IMG/VR virus record: IMGVR_UViG_3300031578_000109
Span: 1-43,593 of that record
Length of the DNA stretch: 43,593 nt
Strand: one strand, 5' to 3'
Origin: a virus
Below, in pieces: positions 26,161 through 43,462 of the stretch. Position 1 is the first letter of the stretch; each line of letters opens with the position of its first letter. The notes under the pieces were generated by a model. It worked only from the letters and a program-made list of their open reading frames with translations. It searched no databases and had not been told where the DNA came from. A program made the translations under genes and the position numbers.

Positions 26161-27030
26161 TTACATCTCAAACAGCGTATACTCCTCTCGCCGCTCGGCG
26201 TAGCTCCACCGCAGCAACTCGACGGCGCGGCGCCGCCCGGCATCCGTAGCCTCCAGATAAATTTCGGTGGTTTTTATATCGGCTTGCCCGAGTAAGGTTT
26301 GAACGGTACGTACGCTCGCGCCGCGGTCGTGGATTTCGGTCGCGAAAAAATGCCGGAAGTCGTGGAAGCGGCACGGCAACCCCGTGGCGGTCTTCGCGCG
26401 GCGGAAGCGGCGCTTGAAACTTTTTAAATGGTTTGAGCCGTTTATAAATATGTATCCGGGGACCTTGCGGCGGGCGAGGACGCGGAGCGCTACGTCGTTG
26501 AGCGGTATGTACTGGATGCCGCGGGTTTTCGAAATGGCGACGGCGAGAACGCGCCGCTCCAAGTCGACGTTCTCGCCGCGTATCTTTAAAATGTCGCCTT
26601 TCCGCAGCCCCGTGTTCACCGCTATTGCGGAGAGGTCGTATAGCAGCAGGTCGTTCTGCAGACACCATACGAGCCAGCGTTCCACCTCGGCCGTCGTCGG
26701 CAGCGCCAGCGGGCGGCGCGCCTCGGGCAACATTTTTACTCCCTTCACCGGATTGCATTCTGTATACCCCGAGAGTATAGCATAATTAAATAGGTGTTTC
26801 AACGTCGCGAGCTCGCGATTAATGGTAGGGTTGCCGGCGTCGTCGGCCTTGCAGCTTCGAACGTAGCGCTCCACGTCGGCGCGGGCAATCCCGGCCAGGT
26901 CGCGGTCGCCGAAGAAATATACGAAGCGGCGGACGTAACGGCCTTTACCCTCGAGCGTCTTGGGTGCGTTGTATATGGCGCAGTAGTCGAGGTACGCCCG
27001 GGCGAAGTCATTAAACGCGACGCTACTCAT
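26161..27030 (-). CDS. int: Tyrosine-type integrase
   Basis: The product has 289 residues. The ATG at 27030 follows AAGGGAAG; a TTG 27 bases upstream is less likely. Residues 5-90 are the SAM-like core-binding domain. The catalytic residues are R143 (NTGLRKGD), K168 (ISKTRG), H223 and R226 (FHDFRH) and the nucleophile Y258 (TTEIYLE). The usual second H/W of LLGH is Q249 here (LLGQADIKTT). It should recombine attP with a bacterial tRNA-Val gene; the attP candidate lies 400 bases away, behind the divergent repressor gene. Confidence 0.95.
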   Translation of the reverse strand: MSSVAFNDFARAYLDYCAIYNAPKTLEGKGRYVRRFVYFFGDRDLAGIARADVERYVRSCKADDAGNPTINRELATLKHLFNYAILSGYTECNPVKGVKMLPEARRPLALPTTAEVERWLVWCLQNDLLLYDLSAIAVNTGLRKGDILKIRGENVDLERRVLAVAISKTRGIQYIPLNDVALRVLARRKVPGYIFINGSNHLKSFKRRFRRAKTATGLPCRFHDFRHFFATEIHDRGASVRTVQTLLGQADIKTTEIYLEATDAGRRRAVELLRWSYAERREEYTLFEM

Positions 27031-27058
27031 TTTCGTTCTTCCCTTTTCAGCCCCCAAA

Positions 27059-27147: not shown

Positions 27148-27468
27148 ATGTTACCAGAAAACAACACAGAAGTCAAGGATAAAATTTCACAGCGGCCGGT
27201 CAAAACGAAAATGGTCGTCCGATTAATAAATAGCCGCGGCCTAAAGCATTACTGGATTGCCCGCGAAGTCCTTAATATCCACCCTAAACACTTCAGCAGA
27301 ATACTACGCAACAAAAAGTATTGCCGTCTAAACCCCCGATACGTTCCGGCGCTTGCCAAACTTTTAAAGGTTCGGCAAAACGAAATACGCCGCTTGTTTG
27401 GCCTCCCCGAAAAACACCGCAAAGCTCTGGGCGATGACCGACTCGAACGGTCGACCTCCTGCTTGTAA
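27148..27468 (+). CDS. Putative XRE-family repressor whose 3' end is formed by attP
   Basis: This 106-residue protein has a Cro/C1-type helix-turn-helix at about residues 25-85 (LINSRGLKHYWIAREVLNIH, then FSRILRNKK and ALAKLLKVRQNEIRRLFGL). Position next to a divergent integrase makes it the likely lysogeny repressor. It lacks a second dimerisation or cleavage domain. The last residues (GDDRLERSTSCL) and the TAA stop are encoded by the complement of a tRNA-Val 3' half. The stop overlaps the tRNA anticodon. The nearly leaderless start at 27148 is chosen because of the promoter; ATG 27211 is an alternative without ribosome site. Confidence 0.75.
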   Translation: MLPENNTEVKDKISQRPVKTKMVVRLINSRGLKHYWIAREVLNIHPKHFSRILRNKKYCRLNPRYVPALAKLLKVRQNEIRRLFGLPEKHRKALGDDRLERSTSCL

Positions 27469-27477
27469 GGCAGGGGG
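27428..27477 (-). other. attP: 3' half of a tRNA-Val (UAC) gene
   Basis: Read on the minus strand this is CCTGC-CTTACAA-GCAGG (anticodon arm, anticodon TAC), AGGTC, T-arm GACCG-TTCGAGT-CGGTC, acceptor strand ATCGCCC and A. All parts of a bacterial tRNA-Val from the anticodon arm to the discriminator base are present, and the D-arm and 5' acceptor strand are missing. Such a fragment beside an integrase gene is the classic signature of an attachment site that restores the host tRNA after integration. Confidence 0.9.
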
Positions 27478-31638: not shown

Positions 31639-31788
31639 ATGCTAAAAGAATTGGTACTTTATCTTGGCCGACTGGCGCGGGAACGTTTTTACGGCACGGT
31701 AGAGCTTAAATTTGAAGCTGGCCGCGTCGTCTCCGTTCGCCTTAACCGAACGCTAAAGCTCGAAGATTTAGCGGGTGAAGGTGAATAG
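31639..31788 (+). CDS. Second small DUF2292/YezD-like protein
   Basis: This 49-residue protein has an N-terminal helix (LVLYLGRLARERFYG) and a strand pair (TVELKFEAGRVVSVRLNR), the DUF2292 pattern. GAGGAGG precedes the start. It is related in layout, not closely in sequence, to the protein at 3730. It lies 27 bases upstream of the tmRNA-like RNA. Confidence 0.6.
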   Translation: MLKELVLYLGRLARERFYGTVELKFEAGRVVSVRLNRTLKLEDLAGEGE

Positions 31789-31815: not shown

Positions 31816-31892
31816 GGGGGCGCGAGTGGACTCGACGGTGATTAAAGCCGAAGCGCTCTTCACCGTACCGGGTTCGATTCCCGGCGCCTCCA
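31816..31892 (+). ncRNA. Compact tmRNA-like RNA: tRNA-like domain without messenger domain
   Basis: This 77-nt sequence folds as an acceptor stem GGGGGCG/CGCCTCC with discriminator A and a T-arm CCGGG-TTCGATT-CCCGG. After the acceptor it has TGGACTCGACGG, which matches the tmRNA D-loop consensus (E. coli TGGATTCGACGG) at the same distance from the 5' end. The third acceptor pair is G-U, the alanine identity element of tRNA-Ala and tmRNA. In place of an anticodon arm, ACGGTGA (31835-31841) pairs with TCACCGT (31860-31866) around 18 bases, like a shortened tmRNA P2. No tag frame and no pseudoknots exist. CCA is not encoded. Confidence 0.7.
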
Positions 31893-31907
31893 ATAGGAGG
31901 TAATAAG

Positions 31908-32129
31908 ATGAGCGAGATACAAAGCAAGTTAGGCGACCTTCACCTCACCATACATAGCCTTGAGAGTACGGCCCGGCTCGAGGGTCGTATCAGTGTCCAA
32001 GGTTGGCGGACCGTTATGCTTGACCTCACCGGCCAGGCGCAGCGGGAGCTTATCGAGATATACAAGGAGATACTCGGCGACGCTAAGGTAAATGAGAAGA
32101 TTGACGAAATATTAGCGGCGGCGGAATAA
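31908..32129 (+). CDS. Small early protein
   Basis: This 73-residue protein is behind TAGGAGG. An N-terminal beta-region (DLHLTIHSLESTARLEGRIS) is followed by helices (QAQRELIEIYKEIL). It begins 16 bases after the tmRNA-like RNA, so both are on one transcript. It overlaps the next gene by one base (TAATG). No family is recognised. Confidence 0.55.
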   Translation: MSEIQSKLGDLHLTIHSLESTARLEGRISVQGWRTVMLDLTGQAQRELIEIYKEILGDAKVNEKIDEILAAAE

Positions 32130-38729: not shown

Positions 38730-39153
38730 AATAATAAAGGTGGTAGGCGTAGGCGACGGCCCCGAGCGAAGGACTTACGTTGAAGGCGGGCCGGCGTGTA
38801 ACGGGGACGGCAACGCATTTTTAGATTGTAAAGGAACGGGGCGGTTTACTATAAGCCCTGGTGCCCCCGCCGACCCTACCATAAATAAAATTGGCGTTGA
38901 TGAACCCTGTTGTATTTGCCACGGTACCGGCGTCCAGGCCGTCGAGCTATGGCCCGACGCGGAGCTAGACCGTTGGCTTGCCGAGCATTTCGAAACGTGG
39001 GATTTACGGATGCGGCGCGAGCTGCATACTAACGAGCCTACTTACTTCGTCGAGGGCGAACCGTTCATAATAAACCCGCCCGGCAGCGATACTTCAAGGG
39101 GCGCCAAAGTCGCGGCGGTTATCGCCGTGGCGGAGGTAGATAATGCCGACTAA
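38722..39153 (+). CDS. Early protein with degenerate DnaJ-type zinc motifs
   Basis: The product has 143 residues. ATG 38722 follows GAGAGGAGAG. Motifs ACNGDGNAFLDCKGTGRF and CCICHGTGVQ resemble CxxCxGxG with partial loss. The C-terminal part is globular (LDRWLAEHFETWDLRMRREL). It is distantly similar to the paralogues at 35197 and 36229. It overlaps the next gene by 11 bases. Confidence 0.55.
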   Translation: MSKIIKVVGVGDGPERRTYVEGGPACNGDGNAFLDCKGTGRFTISPGAPADPTINKIGVDEPCCICHGTGVQAVELWPDAELDRWLAEHFETWDLRMRRELHTNEPTYFVEGEPFIINPPGSDTSRGAKVAAVIAVAEVDNAD

Positions 39154-40207
39154 AATAGAATGGGCCGAGGAGAGTTGGAACCCGGTAACGGGGTGTACGC
39201 CGGTTAGCGAGGGGTGCGAGAATTGCTATGCGGCGCGAATGGCGAAACGACTCGCGGGGCGGGCCGGCTATCCGGCCGACGACCCGTTCAAAGTAACGCT
39301 ACACCCCGAGCGTTTAGAGCAGCCGTTGAAGTGGCGCAAGCCGCGGCGTATCTTCGTCTGCTCGATGGGAGACTTGTTTCACCCGGATGTACCGTTTTGG
39401 TTTGTATGCCAAGTTATGGCAATCGTAGCGGCGTGCCCCCAACATCAATTTCTATTCCTAACAAAGCGGGCCGTGGCGATGCACGATTACTTTACGGCGT
39501 CGTTACCGCTGGAATTTGAACTACCGGAAGCGGCCAAAGAGTTAGGCGTCCTCGATAAAATACCGGGCAAGAAAACGCCGTGGCCGCCCAAAAACATCTG
39601 GCTCGGCGTAACGGCCGAGAACCAGGCCCGCGCCGACGAACGTATACCCGTCCTGTTGAGTATCCCAGCCGCCGTCCACTTCGTAAGTATCGAGCCGTGC
39701 TTGGGGCCGGTGAACATAGAAAAACCCATCGGCGCTATAGGCAACCGAACCAACTTCGTTTTAGAACAGGCTGTCGGCCAACCTCGTATCTTGGCCGCTT
39801 GCCCGGAATGCGAAGGCACCCGCTACTTCCAAACCGACCCGCATATAGAATATTGCAGCGCGTGCGGCGGTACAGGTTGGGGACTCGATTGGATTATCCT
39901 CGGCGGCGAGTCTGGCCCCGGCGCTCGGCCCGTACATCCCGATTGGGTACGTTCGGTCCGCGACCAGTGCCAGGCGGCGGGCGTTCCGTTTTTCTTTAAG
40001 CAGTGGGGCGAATGGATAGCCGACGAAATGGAATTGCCGGGCGAGGGGCCGCGAAGCAGGCCGGAACCGTATAGGTGGTTTCCTCCCCAAAAGGAAAAAG
40101 GTGAAAGTATCGGTACGTGCTGTTACCGCGTTGGTAAAAAAGAAGCGGGCCGCGAACTCGACGGGCGAACGTGGGAACAATACCCCGCCGTGACGGAGGT
40201 GGAGTGA
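39143..40207 (+). CDS. Phage Gp37/Gp68 family protein (DUF5131)
   Basis: This 354-residue protein has the family start IEWAEESWNPVTGC, TPVSEGCENCYAARMAKR (C18, C25, C28) and later IFVCSMGDLFH, FLFLTKR, NIWLGVTAENQ, FVSIEPCLGP and LDWIILGGESGPGARP. The three cysteines resemble those of radical SAM proteins. The molecular activity is not established. Between SIEPCLGP and DWIILGG it carries an inserted zinc ribbon (CPECEGTRY, CSACGGTGW, near residues 216-248), seen in only part of the family. It overlaps the next gene by one base. Confidence 0.88.
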   Translation: MPTKIEWAEESWNPVTGCTPVSEGCENCYAARMAKRLAGRAGYPADDPFKVTLHPERLEQPLKWRKPRRIFVCSMGDLFHPDVPFWFVCQVMAIVAACPQHQFLFLTKRAVAMHDYFTASLPLEFELPEAAKELGVLDKIPGKKTPWPPKNIWLGVTAENQARADERIPVLLSIPAAVHFVSIEPCLGPVNIEKPIGAIGNRTNFVLEQAVGQPRILAACPECEGTRYFQTDPHIEYCSACGGTGWGLDWIILGGESGPGARPVHPDWVRSVRDQCQAAGVPFFFKQWGEWIADEMELPGEGPRSRPEPYRWFPPQKEKGESIGTCCYRVGKKEAGRELDGRTWEQYPAVTEVE

Positions 40208-42009: not shown

Positions 42010-42466
42010 AAAGCTACGCGCCCGCGTCATAAAAGAGTACGTCGCGGCGGCGGGGTATAGGGGCGTTGTATGTTTTTCCTGCGGTAACGCCTCGACAGCG
42101 TTAAAAGAGGCGGGGCTTTACGTTATTGACGTATCGCCGCGGGGAGAACTTGAGGCCCGTAAATGGTGGACGCCCGAGGATATACACCGTGCTTGGCCCG
42201 ACTTATTCGACGCCACCAGTGGACACCTACCGTTGCCTTTAATGGTAAAAATATCAGCGGCTTTCAAAAAGTATTTAGGGCCGGAGCCTTATTCTTTAAA
42301 CGTACCTACCGGCTCGGGCGAAACTATTTTAGCGTTGAAAGTAGCGTACCCGACGCTCGATTTTAGGCCCGTATATAATTTAGATGACGCTACTAAATAC
42401 AATCCAGAAGCGCCACTTAATAAAGTAGTTGAAGGGATATGCGAAATGGAAATTATCAATGCCTAA
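41984..42466 (+). CDS. Conserved phage protein of unknown function
   Basis: This 160-residue protein has CFSCGNASTALKEAGLYVID, RKWWTPEDIHRAWPDLFDAT, SGHLPLPLMVKISAAFKKYL and LNVPTGSGETILALKVAYP. I recall similar phage proteins next to DNA methylases, and the gene here lies directly behind a methylase remnant. The SGNA-like and PTGSGET stretches faintly resemble fold-type II PLP enzymes, but no PLP lysine is evident. It ends in the same ATGCCTAA overlap as the methyltransferase at 396. Confidence 0.7.
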   Translation: MELLRFPNKKLRARVIKEYVAAAGYRGVVCFSCGNASTALKEAGLYVIDVSPRGELEARKWWTPEDIHRAWPDLFDATSGHLPLPLMVKISAAFKKYLGPEPYSLNVPTGSGETILALKVAYPTLDFRPVYNLDDATKYNPEAPLNKVVEGICEMEIINA

Positions 42467-42953
42467 AACCCGCGACGGCAGCGCGATACTCGCCGACCTA
42501 CGGGGCAAGACCGCCAACGCCGCGGCCGAATACGCCGCCCGAGGCTGGGCCGTGTTCCCCTGCGTACCCGGCGGTAAAGTACCGCTGGGAACACTCGCCC
42601 CCCACGGCGTCAAGGACGCGACGACCGACGCGATGAAGATACGGGAATGGTGGACCGCCGAGCCTAACGCCAACGTCGCCATCGCCGCCGGCCGCTCCGG
42701 CCTCGTAATCGTGGACTGCGACGGCACCGAGGGTATAGGTGCCTTTACCTCCTGGGCCGACGCGCAGGATATACCGCTCGGCGACGTACCCTGCGCCGCG
42801 ACGCCGAACGGCGGGCGGCATTACTATTTTGCGGCGGGGAACAGCCCCGCCGTCCCTTTATCCCCCCGCGTACGCGTCCTCCCCGGCGTCGATATCCGCG
42901 CCGGCGAAAGCTACGTCGTCGCGCCGCCGTCAACTTTTGAAGAGGAGAAATAG
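42459..42953 (+). CDS. Prim-Pol domain protein (N-terminal part of split primase-helicase)
   Basis: This 164-residue piece is an archaeo-eukaryotic primase-type Prim-Pol (bifunctional DNA primase/polymerase N-terminal). GWAVFPCVPGGKVPL opens the domain. LVIVDCDG carries the catalytic acids near residue 85, and GGRHYYF and GVDIRAGESYVVAPP are later motifs. It should make primers for phage DNA. The frame ends at TAG 42951 directly behind YVVAPPSTF, where homologues continue. The continuation is found in the minus-one frame from about 42941-42956. Confidence 0.85.
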   Translation: MPKTRDGSAILADLRGKTANAAAEYAARGWAVFPCVPGGKVPLGTLAPHGVKDATTDAMKIREWWTAEPNANVAIAAGRSGLVIVDCDGTEGIGAFTSWADAQDIPLGDVPCAATPNGGRHYYFAAGNSPAVPLSPRVRVLPGVDIRAGESYVVAPPSTFEEEK

Positions 42954-42955
42954 CT

Positions 42956-43462
42956 ATCAAGACGTGGGATTGGACCCTCCCCCCCGACGACGGCGTACCT
43001 GCGGCGCCCACGGCGCTGCTTGAGCTGGCGACGACACCGGCGGCCGCGCCGGCGCAAAACGGCGCCGAAGAACCGATACCCGAAGGTCGCCGGGATATGG
43101 AGCTGACGCGCATCGCCGGCGCGTTGCGGCGACAAGGCGCTACGCAGAACGAAATACTCGCCGCCCTCCGGGCCGTCAACATCCGCTGCCGCCCGCCGCA
43201 CGGCGAAAAGGACCTCATCCGCATCGCCCGCAGCGTTGCGCGGTATGAGCCGGAGCAGCGAAAATACAACCTTACCGACGGCGGCAACGGCGAATTCTAC
43301 GCCGACGAATACGGCGACCGCGTGCGCTACGACCGCCGCCGCGGCGCGTGGTTGGTATGGGACGGTACGATTTGGGGTACAAACAACGACGGCGCGCTCA
43401 CGCGCCTGGCCCTTAAAGCCGCCCGGAAGCGCGGTATGGCGGCGTATGTAGAAAAGGATTAA
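42956..43462 (+). CDS. Primase C-terminal and D5_N piece of the split primase-helicase
   Basis: In frame from 42956 (no ATG until 43097) the sequence IKTWDWTLPPDDGVP, a linker, and LTRIAGALRRQGATQNEILA with LIRIARSVARYEPE form the PriCT domain. VRYDRRRGAWLVWDGTIWG is the beginning of D5_N. The frame ends KAARKRGMAAYVEKD, exactly where the helicase part should start; that part is at 389. The true start is unknown: reinitiation near 42950, a ribosomal frameshift or an assembly indel are possible. The stop overlaps the methyltransferase start (TAATG). Confidence 0.8.
   Translation: MKTWDWTLPPDDGVPAAPTALLELATTPAAAPAQNGAEEPIPEGRRDMELTRIAGALRRQGATQNEILAALRAVNIRCRPPHGEKDLIRIARSVARYEPEQRKYNLTDGGNGEFYADEYGDRVRYDRRRGAWLVWDGTIWGTNNDGALTRLALKAARKRGMAAYVEKD

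Follow-up and report, generated by a model that had tools for sequence, protein, structure and literature searches.

A 77-nucleotide phage RNA that keeps the tRNA-like domain of tmRNA and has no messenger part is one member of a widespread phage family

Can a phage carry both ends of transfer-messenger RNA (tmRNA) with no message between them, and if so, what would such an RNA do? Bacteria rescue stalled ribosomes mainly by trans-translation. The question arises at positions 31816-31892 of the IMG/VR virus record IMGVR_UViG_3300031578_000109, all 43,593 nucleotides (nt) of which constitute the window analysed here. A sequence-only reading of the window had proposed that these 77 nt hold the two ends of tmRNA without a messenger part. 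We find that the element is a phage tmRNA reduced to its tRNA-like domain (TLD), with a short loop on helix P2 in place of the mRNA-like domain (MLD) and pseudoknots, and that it is one of a widespread family of phage RNAs selected for the TLD fold and for the G3-U70 acceptor pair.

Parts of the element and model scores

The coordinates and parts proposed by the sequence-only reading stood: the G3-U70 acceptor stem, A discriminator, T-arm, tmRNA D-loop, and a 7-bp ACGGTGA/TCACCGT stem at the site of P2 are all present. The letters of the element, 5' to 3', are GGGGGCG CGAG TGGACTCGAC GGTGATTAAAGCCGAAGCGCTCTTCACCGTA CCGGG TTCGATT CCCGG CGCCTCC A, where the last is discriminator A73 (31892); CCA is not encoded. 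Its features are as follows.

31816..31892, plus strand: TLD-only tmRNA (mini-tmRNA), 77 nt; RF00023 E=7.6e-9, leave-out covariance model R1 48.7 bits, E=2.8e-12
31816..31822, plus strand: acceptor stem 5' strand GGGGGCG, G3 = 31818; 7/7 pairs with 31885-31891
31827..31836, plus strand: tmRNA-type D-loop TGGACTCGAC, from sequence; family consensus GG(A/T)TTCGAC
31835..31841, plus strand: P2 5' strand ACGGTGA; 7/7 pairs with 31860-31866, homologous helix covaries in relatives
31842..31859, plus strand: P2 loop TTAAAGCCGAAGCGCTCT; possible 3-bp hairpin 31846-31848/31855-31857, from the fold
31860..31866, plus strand: P2 3' strand TCACCGT; pairs with 31835-31841
31868..31884, plus strand: T-arm CCGGG-TTCGATT-CCCGG, from sequence and the RF00023 alignment
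31885..31891, plus strand: acceptor stem 3' strand CGCCTCC, U70 = 31889; pairs with 31816-31822

The third acceptor pair is G31818-U31889 (G3-U70), and the RF00023 alignment contains both the T-arm and a tmRNA-type D-loop without a D-stem. Inside P2, just 18 nt stand in place of the MLD and pseudoknots, leaving no room for either, as had been claimed; the element has neither a pseudoknot nor a reading frame for a tag, with its resume and stop codons. An AAAGCC motif in this loop is common to relatives such as loci L350 and L333.

Aligned to the Rfam tmRNA model RF00023, the element spans model positions 1-371, end to end across a deletion of ~300 nt (~306 positions skipped), with 25.4 bits and E=7.6e-9; a genome search of the window gave 45.6 bits. 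A default Rfam scan of the window reported nothing for the element because its RF00023 score lies under the gathering score, which the short form exceeded in 17 of the 22 relative records checked. ARAGORN, run on the window, likewise reported no tRNA or tmRNA there. The sequence-only reading had called for a comparison of tmRNA and tRNA models, and the tmRNA model scored far above: the tRNA model gave 18.5 bits, under its cut-off of 29, and there is therefore no canonical anticodon arm. Nor does the element have an anticodon loop, as P2 closes the 18-nt loop. A covariance model built from 27 other phage sequences, with the window excluded, recovered the element as its sole match in the window (48.7 bits, E=2.8e-12), against a background of at most 22.3 bits for loci without a TLD in 425 kb and ~26 bits for genuine tRNAs. 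Owing to the longer linker in the window, this model misaligned the acceptor there by two bases.

Relatives in phages and conservation of P2 and G3-U70

Relatives were collected with two patterns. The first comprised only the D-loop and T-loop motifs at a spacing of 18-48 nt, with no acceptor letters. It matched 30 stretches in viral contigs, about 20 of which fold as TLDs. In bacterial and archaeal genomes totalling 257 Gb it matched 112 stretches, but a TLD fold together with a match to the family model was seen in four of them only; the mini-tmRNA is thus phage-borne. At a spacing of 49-79 nt, the same pattern matched 24 viral stretches, with no structurally valid member. The second pattern ran from TTCGAC through the T-arm to TCCA, forcing U70 and leaving G3 free, and among the matches listed 84 of 117 new loci contain a member. 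At least 87 distinct sequences of 61-88 nt, found in unrelated phages, pass a filter of 7/7 acceptor and 5/5 T-stem pairing; P2 was selected by neither pattern nor filter. The 106 loci among the matches listed fall into at least 25 groups with no protein in common within the fetched flanks. A rough recapture estimate, in which 3 of 16 known members were re-found among the matches listed, suggests that several hundred viral contigs carry such an RNA. The exact 15-mer TGGACTCGACGGTGA matched 92 stretches in IMG/VR, none of them a mini-tmRNA.

Selection on the fold is evident in P2, whose covariation across phages the sequence-only reading had named as a check. Among 84 sequences anchored on both sides, pairs 1-6 of P2 form in 98, 98, 90, 90, 90, and 81%, compared with 41-45% in shuffles; the filter inflates the corresponding acceptor and T-stem percentages and leaves those of P2 and its 3-bp hairpin unaffected. 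In a 27-sequence alignment, an equal-linker subset with a named structure, 16 of 21 pairs changed on both sides. The covariation score was 0.674 versus 0.145 for shuffled alignments, with none of 500 shuffles as high, and covariation was lost when the named structure was slid by one column, all slid controls collapsing. An alternative procedure, MAFFT with RNAalifold on the mixed-length set, misaligned the acceptor and returned the T-arm alone, and was not used. Most members carry a hairpin of the AAA(G/A)CCGCAYGCGG type on P2; the window variant, AAAGCCGAAGCGC, is close to those of L350, L333, and L107.

Conservation of G3-U70, the second check that had been named, is without exception. The pair occurs in all 18 members (window included) recovered by the pattern without acceptor letters and in 87/87 distinct sequences overall among the matches listed; position 3 is always G in the second-pattern set, though A would also pair. 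By comparison, 3 of 153 tRNAs of the same contigs carry G3-U70. Acceptor pairs 4-7 vary freely with compensation while G3-U70 is invariant, so its invariance reflects more than shared ancestry. Because G3-U70 is the alanine identity element established for AlaRS, selection for alanylation is the natural reading, and the exceptionless pair suggests that the RNA works in charged form in nature, be it as a charged competitor or as a tagless rescue RNA.

Several cultured phages carry members. Streptomyces phages LuckySocke, GiJojo, pSt2308, and BRock score 83-93 bits with the family model, and Streptomyces phage Riptide carries a diverged member (63 bits, near 83300 of PV654398.1; L398). The Streptomyces phage records show no annotated feature or a hypothetical protein at these sites, and ARAGORN reported none of the members tested apart from two spurious calls. 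These 343-nt 'tmRNAs' (L094 2976-3318 and L118 5493-5835) fuse a mini-tmRNA's 3' half with coding DNA upstream of it, producing a spurious tag peptide, and were rejected. A more diverged TLD-like RNA with G3-U70, encoded CCA, and a score of 38 bits occurs in ~291 records of Vibrio phages, apparently of one lineage; in Vibrio phage D419 (L400 357-427) it overlaps a small annotated hypothetical protein on the opposite strand. Among cellular genomes, mini-tmRNAs were found in a Planctomycetes chromosome (L256), two Poribacteria metagenome-assembled genomes (L183 and L212), and an alphaproteobacterial one (L176). L256 and L183 have a full-length tmRNA alongside the mini copy, and PHROG matches around these two loci did not clearly indicate a prophage.

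Proposed function and alternatives

Two small open reading frames (ORFs) with the same orientation as the RNA flank it, one ending at 31788 and the other starting at 31908; the RNA takes up most of the space between them, and no sigma-70-like promoter or terminator was found adjoining it on its strand. The adjoining features are:

31639..31788, plus strand: upstream small ORF of 49 amino acids (aa), co-directional, ending 27 nt 5' of the RNA; read from the sequence, being shorter than the 60-aa limit of the program-made ORF list
31896..31902, plus strand: Shine-Dalgarno sequence AGGAGGT of the next ORF, 3 nt 3' of the RNA; from sequence
31908..32129, plus strand: downstream ORF of 73 aa; searches of its protein gave no known family and no relative in the viral collection

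Neither an SmpB gene nor a gene for an RF-1-domain release factor was found in any of 41 mini-bearing records, window included and some of them fragments, so the RNA must use host partners. The function that we judge most likely, with modest confidence, is antagonism: once alanylated, the RNA would vie with the host's tmRNA for SmpB and for ribosomes that have stalled. Host RNase P and 3' processing would release the RNA from the transcript of the phage operon; after CCA addition, host AlaRS would recognise G3-U70 and attach alanine, while the D-loop/T-arm elbow of the RNA would bind host SmpB. The competitor would be a complex of the alanylated mini-tmRNA with SmpB and EF-Tu; having no template to resume on, it would block or divert tagging and damp host trans-translation during infection.

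Antagonism is the leading explanation because of a report that tmRNA in E. coli is inhibited by a molecule like the TLD-only tmRNA of mycobacteriophage DS6A: a 2025 database paper gives the DS6A case with inhibition of endogenous tmRNA in that host, citing Mao et al. 2009 (PMC11915505). As described there and in an earlier paper, both citing Mao et al. 2009, the inhibition perhaps proceeds by SmpB titration (PMC4131195; PMC11915505). The sequence-only reading had suggested that the RNA may serve as a decoy, and in our analysis this idea continues to lead as a candidate functional explanation.

Several observations weigh against antagonism. Riptide has a full-length tmRNA (94862-95130) in addition to its diverged mini copy, which has no obvious fit with pure antagonism. 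The window copy itself is atypical: it scores under the RF00023 gathering score of 47 (25.4 or 45.6 bits), has GTA between P2 and the T-arm where relatives usually have GGAC, and has a minimum-energy fold in which D-loop and T-loop region pair with each other (-40.1 versus -33.6 kcal/mol for the TLD fold, energies that take no account of tertiary contacts). No close relative of the window phage with the RNA locus was found: its terminase has one relative, at 81%, on a 17-kb contig that lacks the RNA, and three proteins encoded up to 2.5 kb away from the RNA led to no close phage relative. Moreover, according to PMC4131195 (citing Mao et al. 2009), the reported inhibition needed no chargeability, so simple titration does not explain the universal G3-U70.

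The foremost alternative, possible but less probable, is productive tagless rescue, in which an alanylated mini-tmRNA with SmpB would accept the nascent chain in a stalled ribosome and other factors would dismantle the complex, freeing ribosomes untagged, as proposed for mitochondrial tmRNAs that lack a coding sequence (CDS). The retention of G3-U70 and the whole TLD without exception favours this view, as a passive decoy would not need them. With no RF-1-domain release factor in the 41 mini-bearing records, though, release would rest on host factors, and we know of no established route in bacteria for release without a resume codon. On the other side, MLD-less mitochondrial tmRNAs co-occur with SmpB and are believed to be helpful (PMC11915505). 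The sequence alone does not appear to separate a charged competitor from a tagless rescue RNA.

A pure decoy, which would titrate SmpB (or AlaRS/EF-Tu) off the ribosome irrespective of charging, seems improbable. It draws on the report that a similar molecule inhibited tmRNA whether chargeable or not (PMC4131195, citing Mao et al. 2009), but G3-U70 is invariant in 87/87 sequences among the matches listed while neighbouring pairs covary, which suggests more than passive titration.

We consider it very improbable that the element is a degenerate phage tRNA, a tRNA-like Y-RNA module, or a decayed full-length tmRNA. The first two find some footing in the 18.5 bits of the tRNA model and a weak Deinococcus Y RNA match in the window; both were rejected, as the tmRNA model is much better, an anticodon arm is absent, and no YrlA match was found in the window at E<=10. 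Decay is countered by the recurrence of the short form, at 61-88 nt, in unrelated phages and by the lack of structurally valid members at larger spacing.

Least credible is an attachment-site remnant, a recombination scar of integration into host ssrA: although the window phage has a tyrosine integrase and ssrA serves as attB for other phages (PMC10865867), the RNA is not adjacent to the integrase, the probable attP core beside that gene is an unrelated tRNA half 4.3 kb away, DS6A integrates at tRNA-Lys (PMC10865867), and attachment cores hold a 3' piece only, unlike the present RNA, which retains both ends and P2, with covariation across phages. The two features concerned are:

26161-27057, minus strand: tyrosine integrase
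27475..27428, minus strand: tRNA-Val(TAC) 3' half (anticodon arm, T-arm, and acceptor), probable attP core, adjoining the integrase

From this arrangement, the window phage is probably temperate and integrates at tRNA-Val. Each end of the record (42429-43462 and 28-1576) holds part of one Prim-Pol/D5-type primase-helicase gene, within which the record therefore probably starts. A DUF5131 protein with no assigned function (PF07505, E=5.9e-96) is encoded at 39143-40207 on the plus strand.

Taken beyond the window, a broader proposal can be offered tentatively: TLD-only tmRNAs may be widespread, recurrently maintained phage RNA effectors that partner SmpB in alanylated form, share a conserved P2-cap hairpin, and supplant host tmRNA in ribosome rescue, such that infection would switch cells from tagging to tagless rescue; the window would hold a divergent member. 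Phage targeting of trans-translation by a TLD-only RNA had rested on one phage, and our scans add selection for the alanine identity pair and a covarying P2 across many phages. Annotation pipelines miss mini-tmRNA genes, as the ARAGORN results and the blank or 'hypothetical protein' phage records illustrate, and the cultured Streptomyces phages named here are systems open to deletion and tagging assays.

Comparison with known systems

tmRNA sequence in a phage genome also takes the form of attP cores in cluster K mycobacteriophages, which match the 3' end of host tmRNA (PMC10865867). Those cores differ in being a 3' fragment only, part of an integration site, with no 5' half and no P2.

Full-length tmRNAs are encoded by mycobacteriophages Bxz1 and Cosmo and Streptomyces phage Gilson, and permuted full-length forms by Pseudomonas phage SM1 and Rhodobacter phage RcSimone-Hastad. 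They share the TLD and the phage origin with the mini-tmRNAs but keep the MLD and pseudoknots and can tag. Two such neighbourhoods contain further elements. In the cultured Tunturiibacter phage Tunturi_4 (L403, PP885687.1), an RF-1-domain release-factor gene adjoins a permuted full-length tmRNA, bringing two ribosome-rescue parts together, and in Gordonia phage GMA2 (L401 738-794) a Pistol ribozyme and a sub-threshold YrlA-like match lie near a full-length phage tmRNA.

The CDS-less tmRNAs of jakobid mitochondria and Mallomonadaceae plastids likewise have no tag frame and, in plastids, measure ~65 bp (PMC11915505, citing Jacob et al. 2004). These are organelle genes with a nucleus-encoded SmpB, whereas the mini-tmRNAs are phage genes acting in a cell with full tmRNA.

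The closest counterpart is DS6A. The sequence-only reading knew of no described RNA of this form, a claim that fails: DS6A was listed as a 'TLD only' tmRNA in 2014 (PMC4131195, Table 2), and the 2025 database paper repeats the case (PMC11915505). As in the window, the DS6A gene is a phage gene of little more than a TLD (PMC4131195). The window RNA is a further case of this known kind and not the first of its form. DS6A, compared here by description only, is a single named phage case, whereas members of the present family occur in many unrelated phages and are marked by a characteristic hairpin in the P2 loop. Within reach of an open-access literature search there was a single phage case, which the TLD-only family found here far exceeds in size.
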